From assembly GCA_018971105.1 (NCBI GenBank), contig JAGWVB010000013.1, forward strand, positions 1 to 34,993: a stretch of 34,993 nucleotides of DNA, read 5' to 3'. Origin of the DNA: Burkholderiales bacterium. GTDB taxonomy: Bacteria; Pseudomonadota; Gammaproteobacteria; Burkholderiales; Burkholderiaceae_C. A model generated the notes under the pieces. It was not told the origin of the DNA and did no database searches. It saw nothing but the letters and a program-made list of their open reading frames with translations. Made by a program: the position numbers and the translations under genes. Positions 7,570 to 17,678 of this stretch are shown piece by piece; positions within the stretch are counted from its first letter, which is position 1, and every line of letters begins with the position of its first letter.

Positions 7570-7617
7570 GCGACACCGTTCGGTCATAATTCGCCCGTTC
7601 CGGTTCCCGACCGGGAC

Positions 7618-7706
7618 ACACGCTAGGGGTGTTGGCGCCGCGCAAGCGACGCCGACTGAGAAAGTCCCTTTGAACCTGATTGAGGTAATCCTCGCGCAGG
7701 GAAGCA
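7618..7706 (+). ncRNA. TPP riboswitch (THI element)
   Basis: Conserved CTAGGGGTG ... ACTGAGAAAGTCCCTTTGAACCTGAT ... GGTAATCCTCGCGCAGGGAAGC core, with P3-like stem GGCG/CGCC. Confidence 0.93.
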
Positions 7707-7770
7707 TGCACCGCAGCCGAGCGATACGCGGCACGGGTGCCGGCCGACCTGCCATCGACCGAGAAAGACG

Positions 7771-9951
7771 ATGGCCCACGCATTCCCACCGAACCGCCCG
7801 CAGCGCCTCGCGCTGCGCCCCGCCTGCGCCGCCGCGGCCGCGCTGTGCGCGCTGCATGCCGGCGCGCAGACCGCCGGCGACACGGCCCAGCTCGACCCGA
7901 TCACGATCGTCGCGCCCGGCGCCGGCAGCGCCGGCGTCACCGGATTCGGCGACGCGCCGCTGGCGCGCAGCCCCGTGCAGGCCAGCGTCGTCGACGCGGC
8001 GCGCATCCGCGACGGCGGCGGCGTCGGCCTCACCGCGCTGACGCGCTACGACGCGTCGATCAGCGACGCCTACGACGCCGACGGCTACTGGACGACGTTC
8101 AACATCCGCGGCTACGCGACCGACAACCGCTACAACTTCCTGCGCGACGGCCTGCCGATCAACGGCGAGACCAGCCTGCCGCTGGACAACAAGTCGGGCG
8201 TCGAGGTGCTCAAGGGCACGAGCGGCATCCAGGCCGGCACGAGCGCGCCCGGCGGTCTCGTCAACCTCGTCGTCAAGCGGCCCGAAGGAACGCAGCGCAG
8301 CGTGGGCATCGGCTGGCACCAGAACGGCAGCATCGCGGCCTGGGCCGACATCGGCCAGCGCTTCGGCGCCGGCGACGCCTTCGGGCTGCGGCTGAACGTC
8401 GCCGTCGAGCGGCTGGACCCCGTCGTGCGCGATGACCGCGGGCATCGCAACCTGGTCGCACTGGCCGGCGACTGGCGCCTCGACGCCGACACGCTGCTCG
8501 AGGCCGAACTCGAAAGCAGCCGCCAGAGCCAGCCGAGCGTGCCCGGCTTCAGCCTGCTGGGCAACCAGCTGCCGAGCGCAGCCAGCATCGATCCGCGCAT
8601 CAACCTCAACAACCAGCCCTGGACGCTGCCGGTCGTGCTCGCAGGCCATACCGGATCGCTGCGGCTGCAGCGGCGGCTGGCGGGCGACTGGAAACTGGTG
8701 GCGCAACTGATGCAGCAGCGCCTGCGCAGCGACGACCGGCTGGACTATTCCTTCGGTTGTTCGGCCGAAGGCAATTACGACCGCTATTGCTCGGACGGCA
8801 GCTTCGACTATTACGAATACCGCAGCGACGGCGAGCGCCGCATCACGACCGATATCGACATCCATGCCCAGGGCCGCGTCGCCACCGGCGGCCTGCGCCA
8901 CGAACTGACATTCGGCGCGTTGACGACACGGTTTCGGCTGCGCACGCAGCCCCAGGCCGACAGCAGCGTCATCGTCGGCCAGGGCAACGTCAACGGACTG
9001 GTGATGATCCCGGCGCTGCCGGCGAATCTGGGCTGGGTGCCCAATTCCGACCGCACCGAACGCTCGAACGAGCTGTATCTGCGCGACCATGTCCGCGTTT
9101 CCAACGCGCTGGGCCTGTGGCTGGGACTGCGCCACAGCGCGATCGGGCGCGACAGCGTGCAGACCGACGGCAGCCAGGCCACGAGCTACACGCAGGGCTT
9201 CACGACCCCGTGGCTGGCCGCCGGCTGGAGGGTCGGCGCGACGGCGCTGCTCTACGCGAGCTGGGGCGAGGGCATCCAGTCGACGGTGGCGCCGAACCGG
9301 CCCGGCTATATCAATGCGGGCCGGCCGCTGCCGGCGATCGAGAGCCGGCAGACCGAGATCGGCATCAAGAGCGCAGGCTCCGAGCTGGGCTGGAGCGTGA
9401 ACGCGTTCGACATCCGCCAGCCGCAATTCGACGATGTGTCGAGCGGCTGCGATGTCGATCCGAACGCCTGCATCACGACGCGGCTCGACGGCACGCAGCG
9501 CAACCGGGGACTCGAGGCCAGCTTGCGCTGGCGCGCCGATGCGCTGACGCTGCAAGCCAGCGCGATGCTGCTGCGCGCGACGATCGAGGGCAACAGCAAT
9601 CCGGCGATCAACGGCAAGCGACCGACCAACGTCCCGGCGCGGACGCTGAAATTCAATGCCGATTACGCGATCGGCGCCTGGCCGGGCCTGAAGCTGCAGG
9701 CCGCCATGGCGTTCGAGGGCGAGCGCATGGTGCTGCCCGACAACAGCGTTTCGGTCCCCGGCTGGTCACGCTGGGACCTGGGCGCGAGCTACGCGCTGCG
9801 GTCGGGTGCGACGACCTACATCTGGAGCGCCGGCATCGACAACGCGACCGACCGCCGCGCGTGGCGCGAGTCGCCGTACGAATACCAGCACGTCTACCTC
9901 TTCCCGCTGGCGCCGCGGACCTGGCGCCTGGCGCTGCGCGTGAACCTTTGA
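7771..9951 (+). CDS. TonB-dependent receptor (siderophore-receptor-like fold; candidate thiamin/precursor transporter)
   Basis: Signal-like N-terminus, TonB-box-like DPITIVAP, plug domain (FNIRGY, LPLDNKSGVEVLKGTSGIQAGTSAPGGLVNLVVKRP), C-terminal aromatic barrel strand RTWRLALRVNL. Confidence 0.92.
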   Translation: MAHAFPPNRPQRLALRPACAAAAALCALHAGAQTAGDTAQLDPITIVAPGAGSAGVTGFGDAPLARSPVQASVVDAARIRDGGGVGLTALTRYDASISDAYDADGYWTTFNIRGYATDNRYNFLRDGLPINGETSLPLDNKSGVEVLKGTSGIQAGTSAPGGLVNLVVKRPEGTQRSVGIGWHQNGSIAAWADIGQRFGAGDAFGLRLNVAVERLDPVVRDDRGHRNLVALAGDWRLDADTLLEAELESSRQSQPSVPGFSLLGNQLPSAASIDPRINLNNQPWTLPVVLAGHTGSLRLQRRLAGDWKLVAQLMQQRLRSDDRLDYSFGCSAEGNYDRYCSDGSFDYYEYRSDGERRITTDIDIHAQGRVATGGLRHELTFGALTTRFRLRTQPQADSSVIVGQGNVNGLVMIPALPANLGWVPNSDRTERSNELYLRDHVRVSNALGLWLGLRHSAIGRDSVQTDGSQATSYTQGFTTPWLAAGWRVGATALLYASWGEGIQSTVAPNRPGYINAGRPLPAIESRQTEIGIKSAGSELGWSVNAFDIRQPQFDDVSSGCDVDPNACITTRLDGTQRNRGLEASLRWRADALTLQASAMLLRATIEGNSNPAINGKRPTNVPARTLKFNADYAIGAWPGLKLQAAMAFEGERMVLPDNSVSVPGWSRWDLGASYALRSGATTYIWSAGIDNATDRRAWRESPYEYQHVYLFPLAPRTWRLALRVNL

Positions 9952-10003: not shown

Positions 10004-10079
10004 TCCCCGATAGCTCAGTCGGTAGAGCGCCGGACTGTTAATCCGTAGGTCCCTGGTTCGAGCCCAGGTCGGGGAGCCA
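10004..10079 (+). tRNA. tRNA-Asn (GTT anticodon), CCA encoded
   Basis: TCCCCGATAGCTCAGTCGGTAGAGCGCCGGACTGTTAATCCGTAGGTCCCTGGTTCGAGCCCAGGTCGGGGAGCCA; cloverleaf arms readable. Confidence 0.96.
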
Positions 10080-10100
10080 AGAAAACTCGATATGAAACAA

Positions 10101-10137
10101 GGACTTAGGCGCTTCGGCTCCTAGGTCCTTTTTCTTT
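10101..10137 (+). terminator. Rho-independent terminator after tRNA-Asn
   Basis: GGACTTAGG-cgcttcggct-CCTAGGTCC followed by TTTTT. Confidence 0.85.
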
Positions 10138-10385
10138 GCTCGGCCTGCTGGTGGCTCCATGTAGCCACCATGTAGCGAGCGGTACAGGGTTTCGGCCCTT
10201 CCGGGCCATCCCGGCGTCGGCCTGCGTCGGCCTGCATTGCATGGGGCGTTTCGGCGCCGGGTCGCCCTCGCCTATGGGGTGTCGGCCCGGGGACCCTTGC
10301 ATGGGATTGTTTTTCCGGTGGGCGTCGCCGTCGCTCGCGCGGGGCGGCCACACATGAACACTTTTGTACTCGGCCGGCGGCGCGG

Positions 10386-10610
10386 TCAGGGTGCCGGCGC
10401 TGGTGCCTGGGGCGGCGCGCATTCGCTCTCGTCCAACAGAAAGCCGTTGAAGTCGACGCGATGCGCTGGCACTACCTCAACGGTCTCGGCGATGGGGGCG
10501 CCGCCCAGCATCTGGATGGCCTGCGCAGACCCCTTCCGCGGAAACTGGTACGGCGCACCGGTCCCATCGCGCCGGAGCGTGAAGGCACAGACGAGGACGG
10601 GCGTTGTCAC
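10386..10610 (-). CDS. hypothetical protein (island)
   Basis: ORF with coherent protein-like composition: MTTPVLVCAFTLRRDGTGAPYQFPRKGSAQAIQMLGG... Confidence 0.5.
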   Translation of the reverse strand: MTTPVLVCAFTLRRDGTGAPYQFPRKGSAQAIQMLGGAPIAETVEVVPAHRVDFNGFLLDESECAPPQAPAPAP

Positions 10611-10834
10611 GGTTCGGAGTTTGCCACTCTCATCCGTGGTAGAGAAAAGCTTTGCGTCGAGGGCGGCACTCGCACGCTCTTGCTAGCTGCCTCCTGCCCT
10701 GTCCCTGTTCTCAGACCGGAGCGTCGCCCTCGCGCAGGCGGTTTGACACCATGACTTTTCATAACAGGCTCGGCCCCTGCGGCGCGGCCCCGATGCCAAC
10801 ATTTGCCAACCTCTACAGTTCGCAAACTGCGCGG

Positions 10835-11146
10835 CTACCGGCGCCAGAGCCGGGCCGTCAGCACCTCTACGGCGATGCGCTCGGCGTCGGCTCGAATGCG
10901 CGCTTCCTGGGCCAGCCGCAGCGCGGTAGCCTGCTCGGCGGGAGACAAGGCGCACAGCGCCTGCTCGGCGTCGAACAGCCGTTGCGCAACACTGCGCACG
11001 GCCTGCACCTGCGCCGATAGGCGTTCGGATACCGTTGCTTTGCTCACGCCGAATTCACGCGCAAGGTCGGCGGCACGCTCACCAGCCAGCAGCCGCGCCG
11101 TGAGTGCCTGCCAGGCGCGCGGCGACAGCTTCGAGGGCCTACCCAT
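10835..11146 (-). CDS. helix-turn-helix DNA-binding protein
   Basis: MGRPSKLSPRAWQALTARLLAGERAADLAREFGVSKATVSERL; overlaps upstream ORF end. Confidence 0.7.
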   Translation of the reverse strand: MGRPSKLSPRAWQALTARLLAGERAADLAREFGVSKATVSERLSAQVQAVRSVAQRLFDAEQALCALSPAEQATALRLAQEARIRADAERIAVEVLTARLWRR

Positions 11147-11387
11147 GCGGCAACGCCTCGGCAGCGGCCAGCGGGTCGCGCAGGGCGCACTGTGCCAGGA
11201 CGGCGAGCCCACCGCGTCCGTCTCCGTCCGTCTCCGTCCGTATCCTGTCCGTCTCGGAAACTTGGATACGGTCGAAGGACGGGGGGACTTCAGTCCCCGT
11301 CCGTCCGTACCGCAGGCTGTTTTCCTTAAGGCGGTACGGACGAGCCGAGACGGACGGAATCGCCCTTCTCCCTGGTGCAGTGCTCAT
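11139..11387 (-). CDS. small hypothetical protein; ORF contains the iteron-like array
   Basis: ATG at 11387 overlaps the primase stop (ATGA); its 3' end overlaps the HTH gene start. Confidence 0.45.
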   Translation of the reverse strand: MSTAPGRRAIPSVSARPYRLKENSLRYGRTGTEVPPSFDRIQVSETDRIRTETDGDGRGGLAVLAQCALRDPLAAAEALPHG

Positions 11388-11425
11388 GGCTTCCCCGGCT
11401 CTGGCGCCGTTTCGCCGATACGGAC
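11216..11425. repeat. iteron-like cluster (GTCCGT-core repeats, both orientations) with nested inverted repeats
   Basis: GTCCGT at 11216, 11226, 11236, 11247, 11299, 11303 (+) and ACGGAC at 11336, 11350, 11420; IRs GTCCGTCTCGG(11247-11257)/CCGAGACGGAC(11345-11355) and GTCCGTACCGC(11303-11313)/GCGGTACGGAC(11331-11341). Confidence 0.85.
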
Positions 11426-13558
11426 GGCTGCGGGCGATTTGCGCCAGGTGGGCGGCACTTTCAGCTTATGCGGCGGCAACCCCTCTCCCCGTCTCGCGGC
11501 CTCGCGCTCGTCAGGCGTCAAGCTCACCAGAAAGGCGGCGCGCTTGGGGTTCGTCCTCTCTTTCGGCGGCACGGGCACTTCGATAACCCACTGCTCGGCA
11601 ATGAGGCTTTCCAGACAGGATGCAACGTCTGCGCGGTTGCGCTTGGCCCTGCCTTTGACGCCCTCACGGTTCAACGGGCAGCCCGTCACCCATTCAGTCT
11701 CGATGATGTCGCGCACCTCGTCACGCATGGCTGCGGCTTCAGCCTTGCGGGCGGCCTCCTTTGCTTGCTCCTGGGCTTCCTTGCGGGACTGCTCGGGCGG
11801 TATTGCGACTCCCCAGCGCAGCGTGACTCGCTCAGGGTTGCCGAATTCATCGCGCGCCTCGACGGTCGCCCAATCTCCCCGAATCAGCAGCTCGGGCCAC
11901 TGCGCCTCGAAGCGGGTTTTGCCCCGCACCAGATAGCGCGACTCGTCAGCCTCTTTGACCAAGTAGAGGACTTGGTTTGCATCGGCCTCGAATGCCGAGC
12001 CACCCCGCAGAGACAGCCCGGCAGCATCGGCGCGGCTCATGTTGGCTTTGGCGACATGGCCCACCAGCCAGACGGGCAGGCTGTCGAATTCTTGCTTCAG
12101 CAGGGCCACGATGGCGCTCGCCTCTGAGTTGCTGTTTTCCTCGTCCATCGCCAGGACGGCGGCCTTTGTGTCGAACACCACCAGGGGCAGCACCTCCACG
12201 CCGTCAACGGTGCGGGTGAAGCGTTCGCGGTAGGTCTCGCCTACCTCGGCGACTCGCGCGGGGTCCATGCGCTTCGCCTCGACCATGTGCAGCCGCTCTT
12301 GCACTGTCGGCAGGCCCAGCCCAAGCCCGCCAAACCCCACGATGCCGGCCACGATGCGGCGGGCCTGCTCGATGTCCTCCACGATGTAGACCACATGCCG
12401 CCAATGGCGCGGCGCCAGCTCATCGCCTGGGGCGTGTAGACCGGCGGCCACCATCGCCAGCGGCAGGAGCGCGGTTGTCTTGCCGACGCCGTGCGAGCCG
12501 GCCACTATGACAAGCCCATGCCCGATGAAGCCCGGAATCACCCAGCGCGGGGCGATGGGGCTTCCATCGAGTTCAACGAACTTCGCCAGGGGATGGACCG
12601 GCACGCTTGGACGCTCGGGGGCGCTCGATGACATCAGCAATTCCTCCAGCGCATCAAACCCCTCGGCCTGGGCGTAGTCGTTGGCGTCGAAGTTCTTCGG
12701 GCTGCCCTCGGGCATCGTCACCACCTCGGCGCCGACATCGCGGGCGATTGCCTCGGCGTCAGCTTCCTTGCCGGCGTCGGGCACCAGCACCAGGCGGGCC
12801 GATGCGTCGCGCTGGCGCAGTTCGGCGGCCACAGCACGCATTCGGCCGGCGCCGAAGCAAACCGCCGAGCGAAACCCCACGGCCCGGCGGCAGGCCCACG
12901 CCTGCCCGATGCCCTCGACGATGAAGACCGTATCGCCCGGCTCTACCTCCGCCGGGGAATCGCCGACGATGAACACGCCGGCCATCGCCGCACCGGGCAG
13001 GTTCAACTTCTTGCCATTGCCGGGGGGTGGGATGAATTGCAACGAGACAGGCTCTCCCCCTTCCAACGGCAGCACTGGCACCACCAGCCAGCCGGCCACG
13101 GGCTCACCAGCGATGCGCAGCGGGTCACCGACCGGCACCACGCGCAGCCCATCGGGGCGGCCTGCCTTCGCAGCGATGTAGGGATGCGTCTCGGAAGCCG
13201 GATTGCAGCGGCCCCAAACCTCGGCGGCACTCATGCCAGGGGCTGGGCGACGGCGGGGCTCTGCGGGCTTCCTGCGGGCCTGCGCGGGGCTTTGGCGGCG
13301 CCGCCCATAGCCCCCATGCTCGGCCGCCATCTTGTACAGCGTACCGGGACCTACGCCCTTGCCGGGCGTGAAGCTGCGCCAGGTGTCGCGGGCGGCGCGT
13401 TCATCGTAGTTGCCGCCCTGCGCGCTCCACTCGTTGAAGTCGTCAAACTCGAGCCCGGCAGCCTGGGCGGCCATGCCAGCGCGTACCCATTCATCGCGCG
13501 GCAAGTCGGGCGGGATGGCGCGCAGCGCTTCACGGGCGCGGTTTAGGTCAGCGAGCAT
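11384..13558 (-). CDS. primase/helicase-like protein (PriCT-2-like + Toprim-like + RepA-type AAA ATPase)
   Basis: N-term REALRAIPPDLPRDEWVRAGMAAQAAG...TWRSF; VFIVEGIGQAWACR (Toprim-like); VIVAGSHGVGKTTALLPLAMVAAGL (Walker A); VFDTKA, VWLVGHVAKA. Confidence 0.85.
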   Translation of the reverse strand: MLADLNRAREALRAIPPDLPRDEWVRAGMAAQAAGLEFDDFNEWSAQGGNYDERAARDTWRSFTPGKGVGPGTLYKMAAEHGGYGRRRQSPAQARRKPAEPRRRPAPGMSAAEVWGRCNPASETHPYIAAKAGRPDGLRVVPVGDPLRIAGEPVAGWLVVPVLPLEGGEPVSLQFIPPPGNGKKLNLPGAAMAGVFIVGDSPAEVEPGDTVFIVEGIGQAWACRRAVGFRSAVCFGAGRMRAVAAELRQRDASARLVLVPDAGKEADAEAIARDVGAEVVTMPEGSPKNFDANDYAQAEGFDALEELLMSSSAPERPSVPVHPLAKFVELDGSPIAPRWVIPGFIGHGLVIVAGSHGVGKTTALLPLAMVAAGLHAPGDELAPRHWRHVVYIVEDIEQARRIVAGIVGFGGLGLGLPTVQERLHMVEAKRMDPARVAEVGETYRERFTRTVDGVEVLPLVVFDTKAAVLAMDEENSNSEASAIVALLKQEFDSLPVWLVGHVAKANMSRADAAGLSLRGGSAFEADANQVLYLVKEADESRYLVRGKTRFEAQWPELLIRGDWATVEARDEFGNPERVTLRWGVAIPPEQSRKEAQEQAKEAARKAEAAAMRDEVRDIIETEWVTGCPLNREGVKGRAKRNRADVASCLESLIAEQWVIEVPVPPKERTNPKRAAFLVSLTPDEREAARRGEGLPPHKLKVPPTWRKSPAAVRIGETAPEPGKP

Positions 13559-13661
13559 TGACGCACCTCCACAGCATCGCCGCGACCGAGACGGCAGCCG
13601 GAAACAGCGCACATAGGCCCGGCCCGCAGGCGGCCAAAAGGACGAACAGGCGCGCGGTCAT
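13548..13661 (-). CDS. 37-aa hydrophobic microprotein between SSB-like and primase genes
   Basis: MTARLFVLLAACGPGLCALFPAAVSVAAMLWRCVNAR*; ATG overlaps SSB stop (ATGA) and its end overlaps primase start. Confidence 0.55.
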   Translation of the reverse strand: MTARLFVLLAACGPGLCALFPAAVSVAAMLWRCVNAR

Positions 13662-14080
13662 GCCCTGCCTCCGTTCAGCCATGCATCGTCATCGGCTCCG
13701 AAGTCGTCGCCGGCCGGTTGCTGGCGCCGCGCGCTTTCGGGCTGGCGCTCGCTGGCCTGCGCGGCATCGCGCTTCTTTTTCAGCCCGTACTGCGTCATCA
13801 CTTGCGCGGCCACAAGGTCCACGCTCGGGCGGGCGTTGCCCTCGCGGTCGGTCCAGGCGCCAGGCTTGAGCGTGCCGGCCAGCGCGACGGAATCGCCCGC
13901 GTCCAGCGCCAGCAGGGCGGCGCATGCAGACTCGCTGAAAGCGATTACGTTGACAAACAGGGAATCCGCATCGCCGGCAGCCGCGCGGACTTTGGCAACG
14001 ATGAACGAGCGGCCGGCCTTGCTGGTGCGTTCCTCGGCGCGCTGGTGCAACTTGCCGAGCACGAGGGCTTCGATGCTCAT
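13658..14080 (-). CDS. single-stranded DNA-binding protein-like
   Basis: MSIEALVLGKLHQRAEERTSKAGRSFIVAKVRA...FVNVIAFSESACAALLALDAGDSVALAGTLKPGAWTDREGNARPSVDLVAAQV; acidic tail. Confidence 0.75.
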   Translation of the reverse strand: MSIEALVLGKLHQRAEERTSKAGRSFIVAKVRAAAGDADSLFVNVIAFSESACAALLALDAGDSVALAGTLKPGAWTDREGNARPSVDLVAAQVMTQYGLKKKRDAAQASERQPESARRQQPAGDDFGADDDAWLNGGRA

Positions 14081-14430
14081 AGCCGGCCCCCCGTCATCGC
14101 GGCCAGGGCCTGCGCGATGTACTTGCCGGGCAGGTGATACAGCGCAATCACGCGGTCCGGGCAATCGTCGGTCGGCGCCGGAATCTCGATGGTCTCGATG
14201 GGCCAGCCGAGCGAGCGCAGGACGAATATCGAGGCGCCCAGGCGCCAACTCTGCGTGCGGCTCTCAAAATCGGGATGATCAATCTTGCGACCGTCCATCA
14301 GCATGCCGAGCGCGCGGTCGGGGAGAGTTCCACGGGTCGGCCAGGTCGGGGAGAATGGCGGCGGCGGGAGAAACGACATTTGTTCGCCCGAGGCCCCGGC
14401 AGCCGGCAAGTTGTTCGGGGCCTTCTTCAT
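14077..14430 (-). CDS. hypothetical protein (island operon)
   Basis: MKKAPNNLPAAGASGEQMSFLPPPPFSPTWPTRGTLPDRALGML...; ATGA overlap with SSB-like gene. Confidence 0.65.
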   Translation of the reverse strand: MKKAPNNLPAAGASGEQMSFLPPPPFSPTWPTRGTLPDRALGMLMDGRKIDHPDFESRTQSWRLGASIFVLRSLGWPIETIEIPAPTDDCPDRVIALYHLPGKYIAQALAAMTGGRL

Positions 14431-14666
14431 TGCGTCACCCCGAGGAGACTGCGCAAATCGCCGGTTTTCCAGGCAAGGCGCCCGAACAGGCGAACCGGAC
14501 GGATGGGGCCATCCTCGTGACAGGCCCACGCGCGGAGTGTCTGCGGCTTACGGTTGAGGTAGTACGCGGCGGCGGCGGTCGTCACGGTCGGGCTCGTGAC
14601 AGCCTCCAGCGGCGGGTGTTTCTCCCAGTGCGCCAGCGTGGCGGCGTTGGGGATTGAGGTTTGCAT
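14427..14666 (-). CDS. small HTH (MerR/excisionase-like) DNA-binding protein
   Basis: AAYYLNRKPQTLRAWACHEDGPIRPVRLFGRLAWKTGDLRSLL (excisionase/MerR-like helix and wing). Confidence 0.7.
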   Translation of the reverse strand: MQTSIPNAATLAHWEKHPPLEAVTSPTVTTAAAAYYLNRKPQTLRAWACHEDGPIRPVRLFGRLAWKTGDLRSLLGVTQ

Positions 14667-14718: not shown

Positions 14719-14780
14719 ATTCCCGGAATTCCCGGGCCGGCTTCCTCGTTCCCGCCGGGAACCGCGGGAACTGCGGGAAT
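14719..14780. promoter_or_regulatory. candidate operator/iteron cluster: six CGGGAAY heptamers, three per strand
   Basis: ATTCCCG 14719-14725 and 14728-14734, GTTCCCG 14748-14754, CGGGAAC 14756-14762 and 14765-14771, CGGGAAT 14774-14780; includes palindrome GTTCCCGCCGGGAAC. Confidence 0.75.
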
Positions 14781-15708: not shown

Positions 15709-16431
15709 CTAAGCGCCAGCAACCACGCGCAGCCCGGCGGGCTCGGCCTTCGGGTCGAACTTGACGCCGGCCTGCTCAAGAATCCACGCCTCGATGCGCT
15801 CGTGATGAACGCGCAGCAGGTCGAGCGGCCGGCGTTTGTAGTGCTTCTCTGCGGTCGCGCTGGGCTTGTGTCCCTGAATCTGCGCTACCACCCCGGCCGG
15901 CACTTCGAGCCATTCCGTCAGGCTGGCGAAGCTGCGCCGCAACCCGTGCAGCGTCAGCCCTTGCAGTCCAACGGCAGCGCATGCCTTGCGGTGCGCAATG
16001 TCGGGGTCCATCAGGCGCCCGGACTCGCTCGCCTGGGCGGCGTCGCCGACCGGGGCGGCGGTTCCCCGGGCTTCGTGATACCGCTCGCGGCGGGCGATGT
16101 GTATCGGGTTCAGGCTGACGGCTCGGGCGCTCGAAAACACCCACTGATTGCGGCGCGGCAGGGCCGACAGCAGGCTCCAGACATAGGGGGTCAGCGGAAT
16201 CTGGCGCTCGCCTTCCACCTTGTCGCGGATGGTGATGCCGCTCCATTGCGTGTCCAGGTCATCCCAGCGCAGGGCGATGACTTCGCCAGGGCGGGCGCCC
16301 GTCATCAGCAGCGTTTGCAGGTAGGCTGCGGTTACGGCGTTCGGCATGGCACGCACGGCACCGAACCACGCCTTCAGTTGCCCGCGCTCTAGAACATCGT
16401 CTTTGGGCTTCGCCTTGCCGGCTGCCTCGCG
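15709..16431 (-). pseudogene. tyrosine recombinase/integrase, N-terminus removed at IS3-family junction
   Basis: TGARPGEVIALRWDDLD, LTLHGLRRSFASL, IQGHKPSATAEKHYKRR catalytic motifs; ORF loses homology at 16432 (IS end). Confidence 0.88.
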
Positions 16432-16487
16432 TGAGCTGCCCGCCGTTTTTCGTCTTCCAAGGGTCGATTGATAGCATCGAGACCTGA

Positions 16488-17678
<1,191 letters not shown>

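Follow-up and report, generated by a model that had tools for sequence, protein, structure and literature searches.

What is the function of a dense array of short repeats at the end of a primase-helicase gene, and which protein would read it? The array was found in a 34,993-nucleotide stretch of Burkholderiales DNA (the window), between the 3' end of the gene, here called rep, and the end at which a small integrated element adjoins tRNA-Asn. It had been put forward as a candidate replication origin with iterons, to be recognised by the primase or by an adjacent helix-turn-helix (HTH) protein. We compared the array with those of related elements, and its type with the composition of the Rep proteins.

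Geometry and surroundings of the array

Read on the minus strand toward tRNA-Asn, the element consists of an integrase (int) fragment, a 328-aa ORF, an xis-like gene, orf150 (150 aa), ssb, rep, the array and the HTH gene (Table 1). This agrees with the order int, AlpA, pri-rep, ori of phage-inducible chromosomal islands (PICIs), with a weak PHROG match for the AlpA-like gene of the window and a Pfam AlpA match for that of one relative. The 5' part of the integrase is severed by an IS3-type insertion (transposase gene pair at 16468-17678), and a search of the window and the rest of the genome for a second att site returned only weaker tRNA-like matches. Given the broken integrase and the second att site not found, this copy of the element may be immobile. 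A 9-bp tandem repeat, CGGGAACCG (2.7 copies, 14756-14779), lies in the gap that separates the 328-aa ORF from the xis-like gene and is possibly a regulator site. Elsewhere in the window, an Rfam TPP riboswitch (7615-7719) precedes a large ORF (7771-9951) that reads like an outer-membrane receptor.

Table 1 Features of the element and of its repeat array (window coordinates).
Feature	Position	Strand	Remark
tRNA-Asn, presumed attachment site end	10004..10079	+	
Small HTH protein, starts MGRPSK, next gene after array	10835..11146	-	
Cluster of four iterons (CGTCCGTCTC x2, CGTCCGTATC, TGTCCGTCTC), 10-11 bp spacing	11215..11255	+	
One-mismatch iteron CGACCGTATC	11265..11274	-	aligned forward copy in relatives
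Hairpin GGACGGGGGGACTTCAGTCCCCGTCC	11277..11302	.	matching-place hairpins in relatives
Iteron CGTCCGTACC, first reversed copy in rep-sense	11302..11311	+	
Core CGCCTTAAGGAAAACAG between two iteron sets, proposed opening site	11317..11333	-	alignment with relatives
Iteron CGTCCGTACC, forward copy 2 in rep-sense	11333..11342	-	
Iteron CGTCCGTCTC, forward copy 1 in rep-sense	11347..11356	-	
Iteron CGTCCGTATC within last rep codons	11417..11426	-	
rep: PriCT_2 + TOPRIM-type primase, RSF1010-RepA-like helicase (AAA_25), C-terminal winged helix; proposed iteron binder	11384..13612	-	
SSB-family protein	13658..14095	-	
Excisionase/AlpA-like small protein, conserved in relatives	14427..14666	-	weak PHROG match
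Tyrosine integrase, 3' part	15709..16460	-	break point approximate

The repeats are real and strongly non-random. Recounting of the hexamer GTCCGT within the ~210 bp bore out the six forward copies (11216, 11226, 11236, 11247, 11299, 11303) and three reversed copies (11336, 11350, 11420) of the original prediction, against 8 in the other 34.8 kb of the window. The 10-bp head-to-tail run is present exactly as claimed, as are the two perfect 11-bp inverted repeats (11247-11257 / 11345-11355 and 11303-11313 / 11331-11341) and the hairpin, whose letters are those given. A longer unit, CGTCCGTNYC, occurs between 11215 and 11426 in seven exact copies (starting at 11215, 11225, 11235, 11302, 11333, 11347 and 11417) and three copies with one mismatch (11246, 11265, 11298); elsewhere in the 35-kb window it is found once in exact form. 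Near-identical short repeats at helical spacing are a feature of iteron-type origins, and the array has such repeats, 10 bp apart. The placement of the array immediately 3' of the primase/helicase gene holds for most copies, with the exception of the one at 11417-11426, which falls within the rep frame.

The 160 bp that follow the rep stop had a repeat-pair score of 75, compared with at most 14 in 300 dinucleotide shuffles (z 26.6), and nowhere else in the window are repeats clustered as densely by this score. It occurs once in its own genome. An Rfam scan over the array revealed no RNA family, and DNA searches using it as query returned nothing beyond short GC-rich chance matches.

Layout and distribution in related elements

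Conservation of repeat spacing in homologous elements, the check named in the original prediction, was observed. Relative to the rep stop, the iterons of the window lie at -39, +31 and +45 on one side of the core and at +73, +140, +150 and +160 on the other; those of the related locus L059 lie at -58, +13 and +28, and at +54, +124, +134 and +143. The layout kept consists of two forward copies 14-15 nt apart, the core and a reversed copy, with three reversed copies 10 nt apart located ~70 nt beyond the first reversed copy. Counterparts of the first reversed copy are found at +53 to +55 in L059, L060 and L061, and the cluster of four iterons, which is the distal, reversed cluster in rep-sense, has an equal period in relatives at +115 to +143. 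The core between the two opposed sets measures 14-17 nt, is partly AT-rich, and aligns with CCCCTATAGGAAAAAA of the relatives. Hairpins occur at the matching place in L017, L059 and L060, with different stem letters.

The iteron inside rep lies 70-71 nt from copy 1 in the window and in relatives, and is read as GTC-CGT-ATC in the window versus TCC-GTT-CCC in L059. Since it is kept across a change of frame, conservation here seems to act on the DNA and not on the protein; such frame-shifted retention would be hard to explain by protein constraint.

Of 201 genomes sampled across the family, 10 carry homologous elements, as do 9 of 399 from the order, the window's own genome being counted in both; further examples are on Comamonadaceae and Aquabacterium contigs and on viral contigs. 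Most relatives keep the order int, xis, orf150, rep, with rep adjoining a tRNA, and eight (L003, L017, L019, L021, L023, L024, L046 and L067) are flanked by copies of the tRNA 3' end of 20 to 51 nt. L023 and L046 are examples of relatives whose integrase gene is intact. Repeats follow rep in nearly all relatives, in a sequence particular to each element (TTCCCGAA, CCCCGAAA, GCCACA, TGTCTC, TGCGGCGACT, CATCCGTTCCC and others).

A scan from -2000 to +700 of the rep stop, with motifs not chosen beforehand, located the start of the densest repeat cluster between -260 and +60 in 22 of 26 loci, where ~13% is expected by chance; the p-value of this result is overstated, as some of the loci are close relatives. 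As a positive control, the scan placed the origin of the E. coli island EcCICFT073, published and deletion-tested in a plasmid (PMC6092414), at +4 from the primase stop as the top cluster of that island. The top cluster lies elsewhere in four loci (L020, L024, L053, L064), three of which (L020, L053 and L064) nonetheless have visible iterons at the rep stop. In L015, L016, L019, L021 and L023 the array falls within the last ~200 nt of rep, so that origin and gene overlap, the embedded iterons coding for Ala/Thr-rich tails. No other locus has a cluster as strong as the long tandem array of L064 (past 10106, units with CGAAACGGGCAACCGCATGCC), ~150 bp after the rep stop, which could be an additional control region or have some other role.

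The replicon is not limited to islands, and also occurs in a locus with head genes and in a phage. Genes for major head protein, head protease and portal directly follow the array in L066 (1236-4105) and L070 (4116-7787), which are apparently one locus, L070 adding a terminase small subunit; this locus resembles a satellite that encodes a capsid, or else the end of a prophage. An equal layout, with yet another iteron, is present in L069, which comes from a viral contig of 40 kb that also has terminase and portal. PriCT_2/TOPRIM primases are also encoded in plasmid records from Proteus and E. coli (L055, L056 and L057; 8,955, 17,382 and 9,138 bp), two of which carry an annotated tape-measure protein; these may be plasmid-form satellites.

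Rep composition and the function of the array

The Rep proteins of the loci group into C-terminal classes. In the Rep of the window, residues 8-335, the primase half, are 67% identical to L046, while the helicase and C-terminus share 45-51% identity with L017, L059, L060 and L061, whose N-termini are unlike that of the window. Pfam recognised a Prim-Pol N-terminus in L017 and L060 and no primase family in that of L061. By these alignments, Rep is a natural chimera, with a primase that matches one element group and a helicase and winged helix that match another. The array aligns with those of the loci sharing the helicase half (z 13.6 for L060, 9.3 for L059, 3.5 for L017 and 3.4 for L061); of seven arrays from other classes, none aligns with it.

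Array similarity correlated with similarity of the Rep C-terminus (r about 0.5-0.56) in a Mantel test of 20 loci whose arrays lie outside the coding region, the five with an array overlapping the end of rep being left out. The correlation persisted when the primase half was controlled for (partial r 0.47-0.50, p about <=0.001, a value inflated, like all p-values of this test, by related loci), and the primase half added nothing once the C-terminus was given. Given the helicase, the C-terminus retained a partial r of 0.22-0.27 (p 0.02-0.05, likewise inflated). Iteron type thus separates only weakly from the helicase, so that helicase and C-terminus act as one block.

Modelling of Rep residues 330-742, based on an alignment with viral-contig relatives, gave a mean pLDDT of 83. 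The best PDB match of the helicase model was the hexameric helicase RepA of RSF1010 (E 1e-8), and the modelled C-terminus has the helix-helix-helix-strand-strand pattern of a winged helix; a sequence-profile search of the PDB returned chance matches only. Of the two binders originally proposed, the primase/helicase is favoured, because the repeat type follows its helicase/C-terminal half, whereas for the HTH protein no homologue was found in the array-bearing relatives tested. We infer that Rep would bind the iterons through its C-terminal winged helix, the C-terminal domain spanning about residues 620-742; the HTH protein is not required to account for the array.

The array is thus read as an ori, the origin from which a small integrative element of satellite-like type would replicate, at a probability of roughly 0.88, judged from sequence comparison. 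In the proposed mechanism, the element would excise, and the winged helix of Rep would bind the two opposed iteron sets. The DNA would open at the short AT-containing core (CGCCTTAAGGAAAA in the window, CCCCTATAGGAAAA in relatives), where the RepA-like helicase ring could load and the fused primase begin synthesis, perhaps with the help of SSB. As a guess, the hairpin may serve as a primase or strand-initiation site.

The repeats could instead be transcription operators, bound by the adjacent HTH protein or by the AlpA-like protein. In favour of this, the HTH gene directly follows the array and is transcribed away from it. Against it, the region 10080-12000 contains no sigma-70-like promoter or terminator, no HTH homologue was found in the array-bearing relatives tested, and the array type follows Rep, which together render operators improbable. 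Searches of phages for homologues of the HTH protein gave none at E 1e-3. Small DNA-binding proteins are common beside pac sites, and packaging-type genes occur in relatives, L070 combining head genes with a terminase small subunit; the array might on these grounds be a packaging site (pac or cos), with the HTH protein as its small terminase. The terminase small subunit of L070 lies ~3.5 kb from the array, however, arrays follow rep also in loci without a recognised terminase nearby, and the L069 phage has both an array after rep and a terminase of its own. We consider a packaging site very improbable.

An 82-aa ORF (11139-11387), whose start overlaps the rep stop (ATGA), runs through the array, and the repeats might be a by-product of a coding repeat or of low complexity. 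The ORF, however, matches no protein family and has no homologue found in relatives, where most frames across the aligned arrays are interrupted, and the repeats stand in both orientations. Elements with the repeats lost and the ORF kept, the counter-case named in the original prediction, did not appear: relatives keep an array and lack the ORF. A coding or low-complexity origin of the repeats is accordingly given hardly any weight.

Returning to the replication origin, on balance we lean towards a broader reading of it as part of an exchangeable, widespread module. In a single protein, an interchangeable primase (TOPRIM/PriCT_2, Prim-Pol or others) would be joined to a helicase like RepA of RSF1010 and to a winged helix, which would recognise the cognate iterons of an origin placed where the protein's own gene ends, the whole being common to tRNA-integrated islands, the head-gene locus and the phage; primase swaps would place the choice of origin in the helicase/winged-helix half. 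The natural primase swap then yields a prediction as to the segment of a fused primase-helicase that determines origin choice, and whether two elements can replicate together could be explained by iterons that differ between classes. For satellites and phages with unrecognisable initiators, looking near the rep stop codon for a repeat cluster specific to the element would offer a rule for finding the origin.

Comparison with known origins

The helicase fold links Rep to the IncQ plasmid RSF1010, the origin of which has iterons plus hairpins, as in the array. RSF1010 encodes separate RepA, RepB' and RepC proteins, whereas primase, helicase and winged helix form one chain in the window and the element integrates at a tRNA. 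In pRN1 (orf904; PMC4234260), an essential origin element similarly lies just downstream of a primase-helicase-winged-helix gene, and Prim-Pol N-termini occur in loci related to the window element; replication of pRN1 depends on a stem-loop of 100 nt together with a helicase of the SF3 type, whereas iterons dominate in the window. PICMI satellites (PMC10803314) resemble the element in their size of about 6-7 kb and in carrying int, AlpA and primase genes, but are found in Vibrionaceae, integrate beside fis, and have DUF3987/DUF5906 primases in their model.

The closest parallels are with PICIs, which, like the element, carry int and an AlpA-type gene, and whose origins (SaPI, EcCICFT073; PMC6092414) lie directly 3' of the primase/initiator gene. 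In these origins two iteron sets flank a melting region, comparable to the two opposed sets around the core, though the core of the window is short and only partly AT-rich. The initiators differ: that of EcCICFT073 is of D5_N/DUF5906 type, while in that of the window a PriCT_2/TOPRIM primase is fused to a RepA helicase of RecA-like type; the two proteins have different Pfam domains and do not match significantly by BLASTP. Since the position is that of a PICI origin, the iteron layout agrees in part and the initiator is not of the D5/DUF5906 type, we file the array, relative to the open-access papers compared, as a PICI-origin variant rather than as a PICI. It is best read as a predicted iteron origin in the PICI style.
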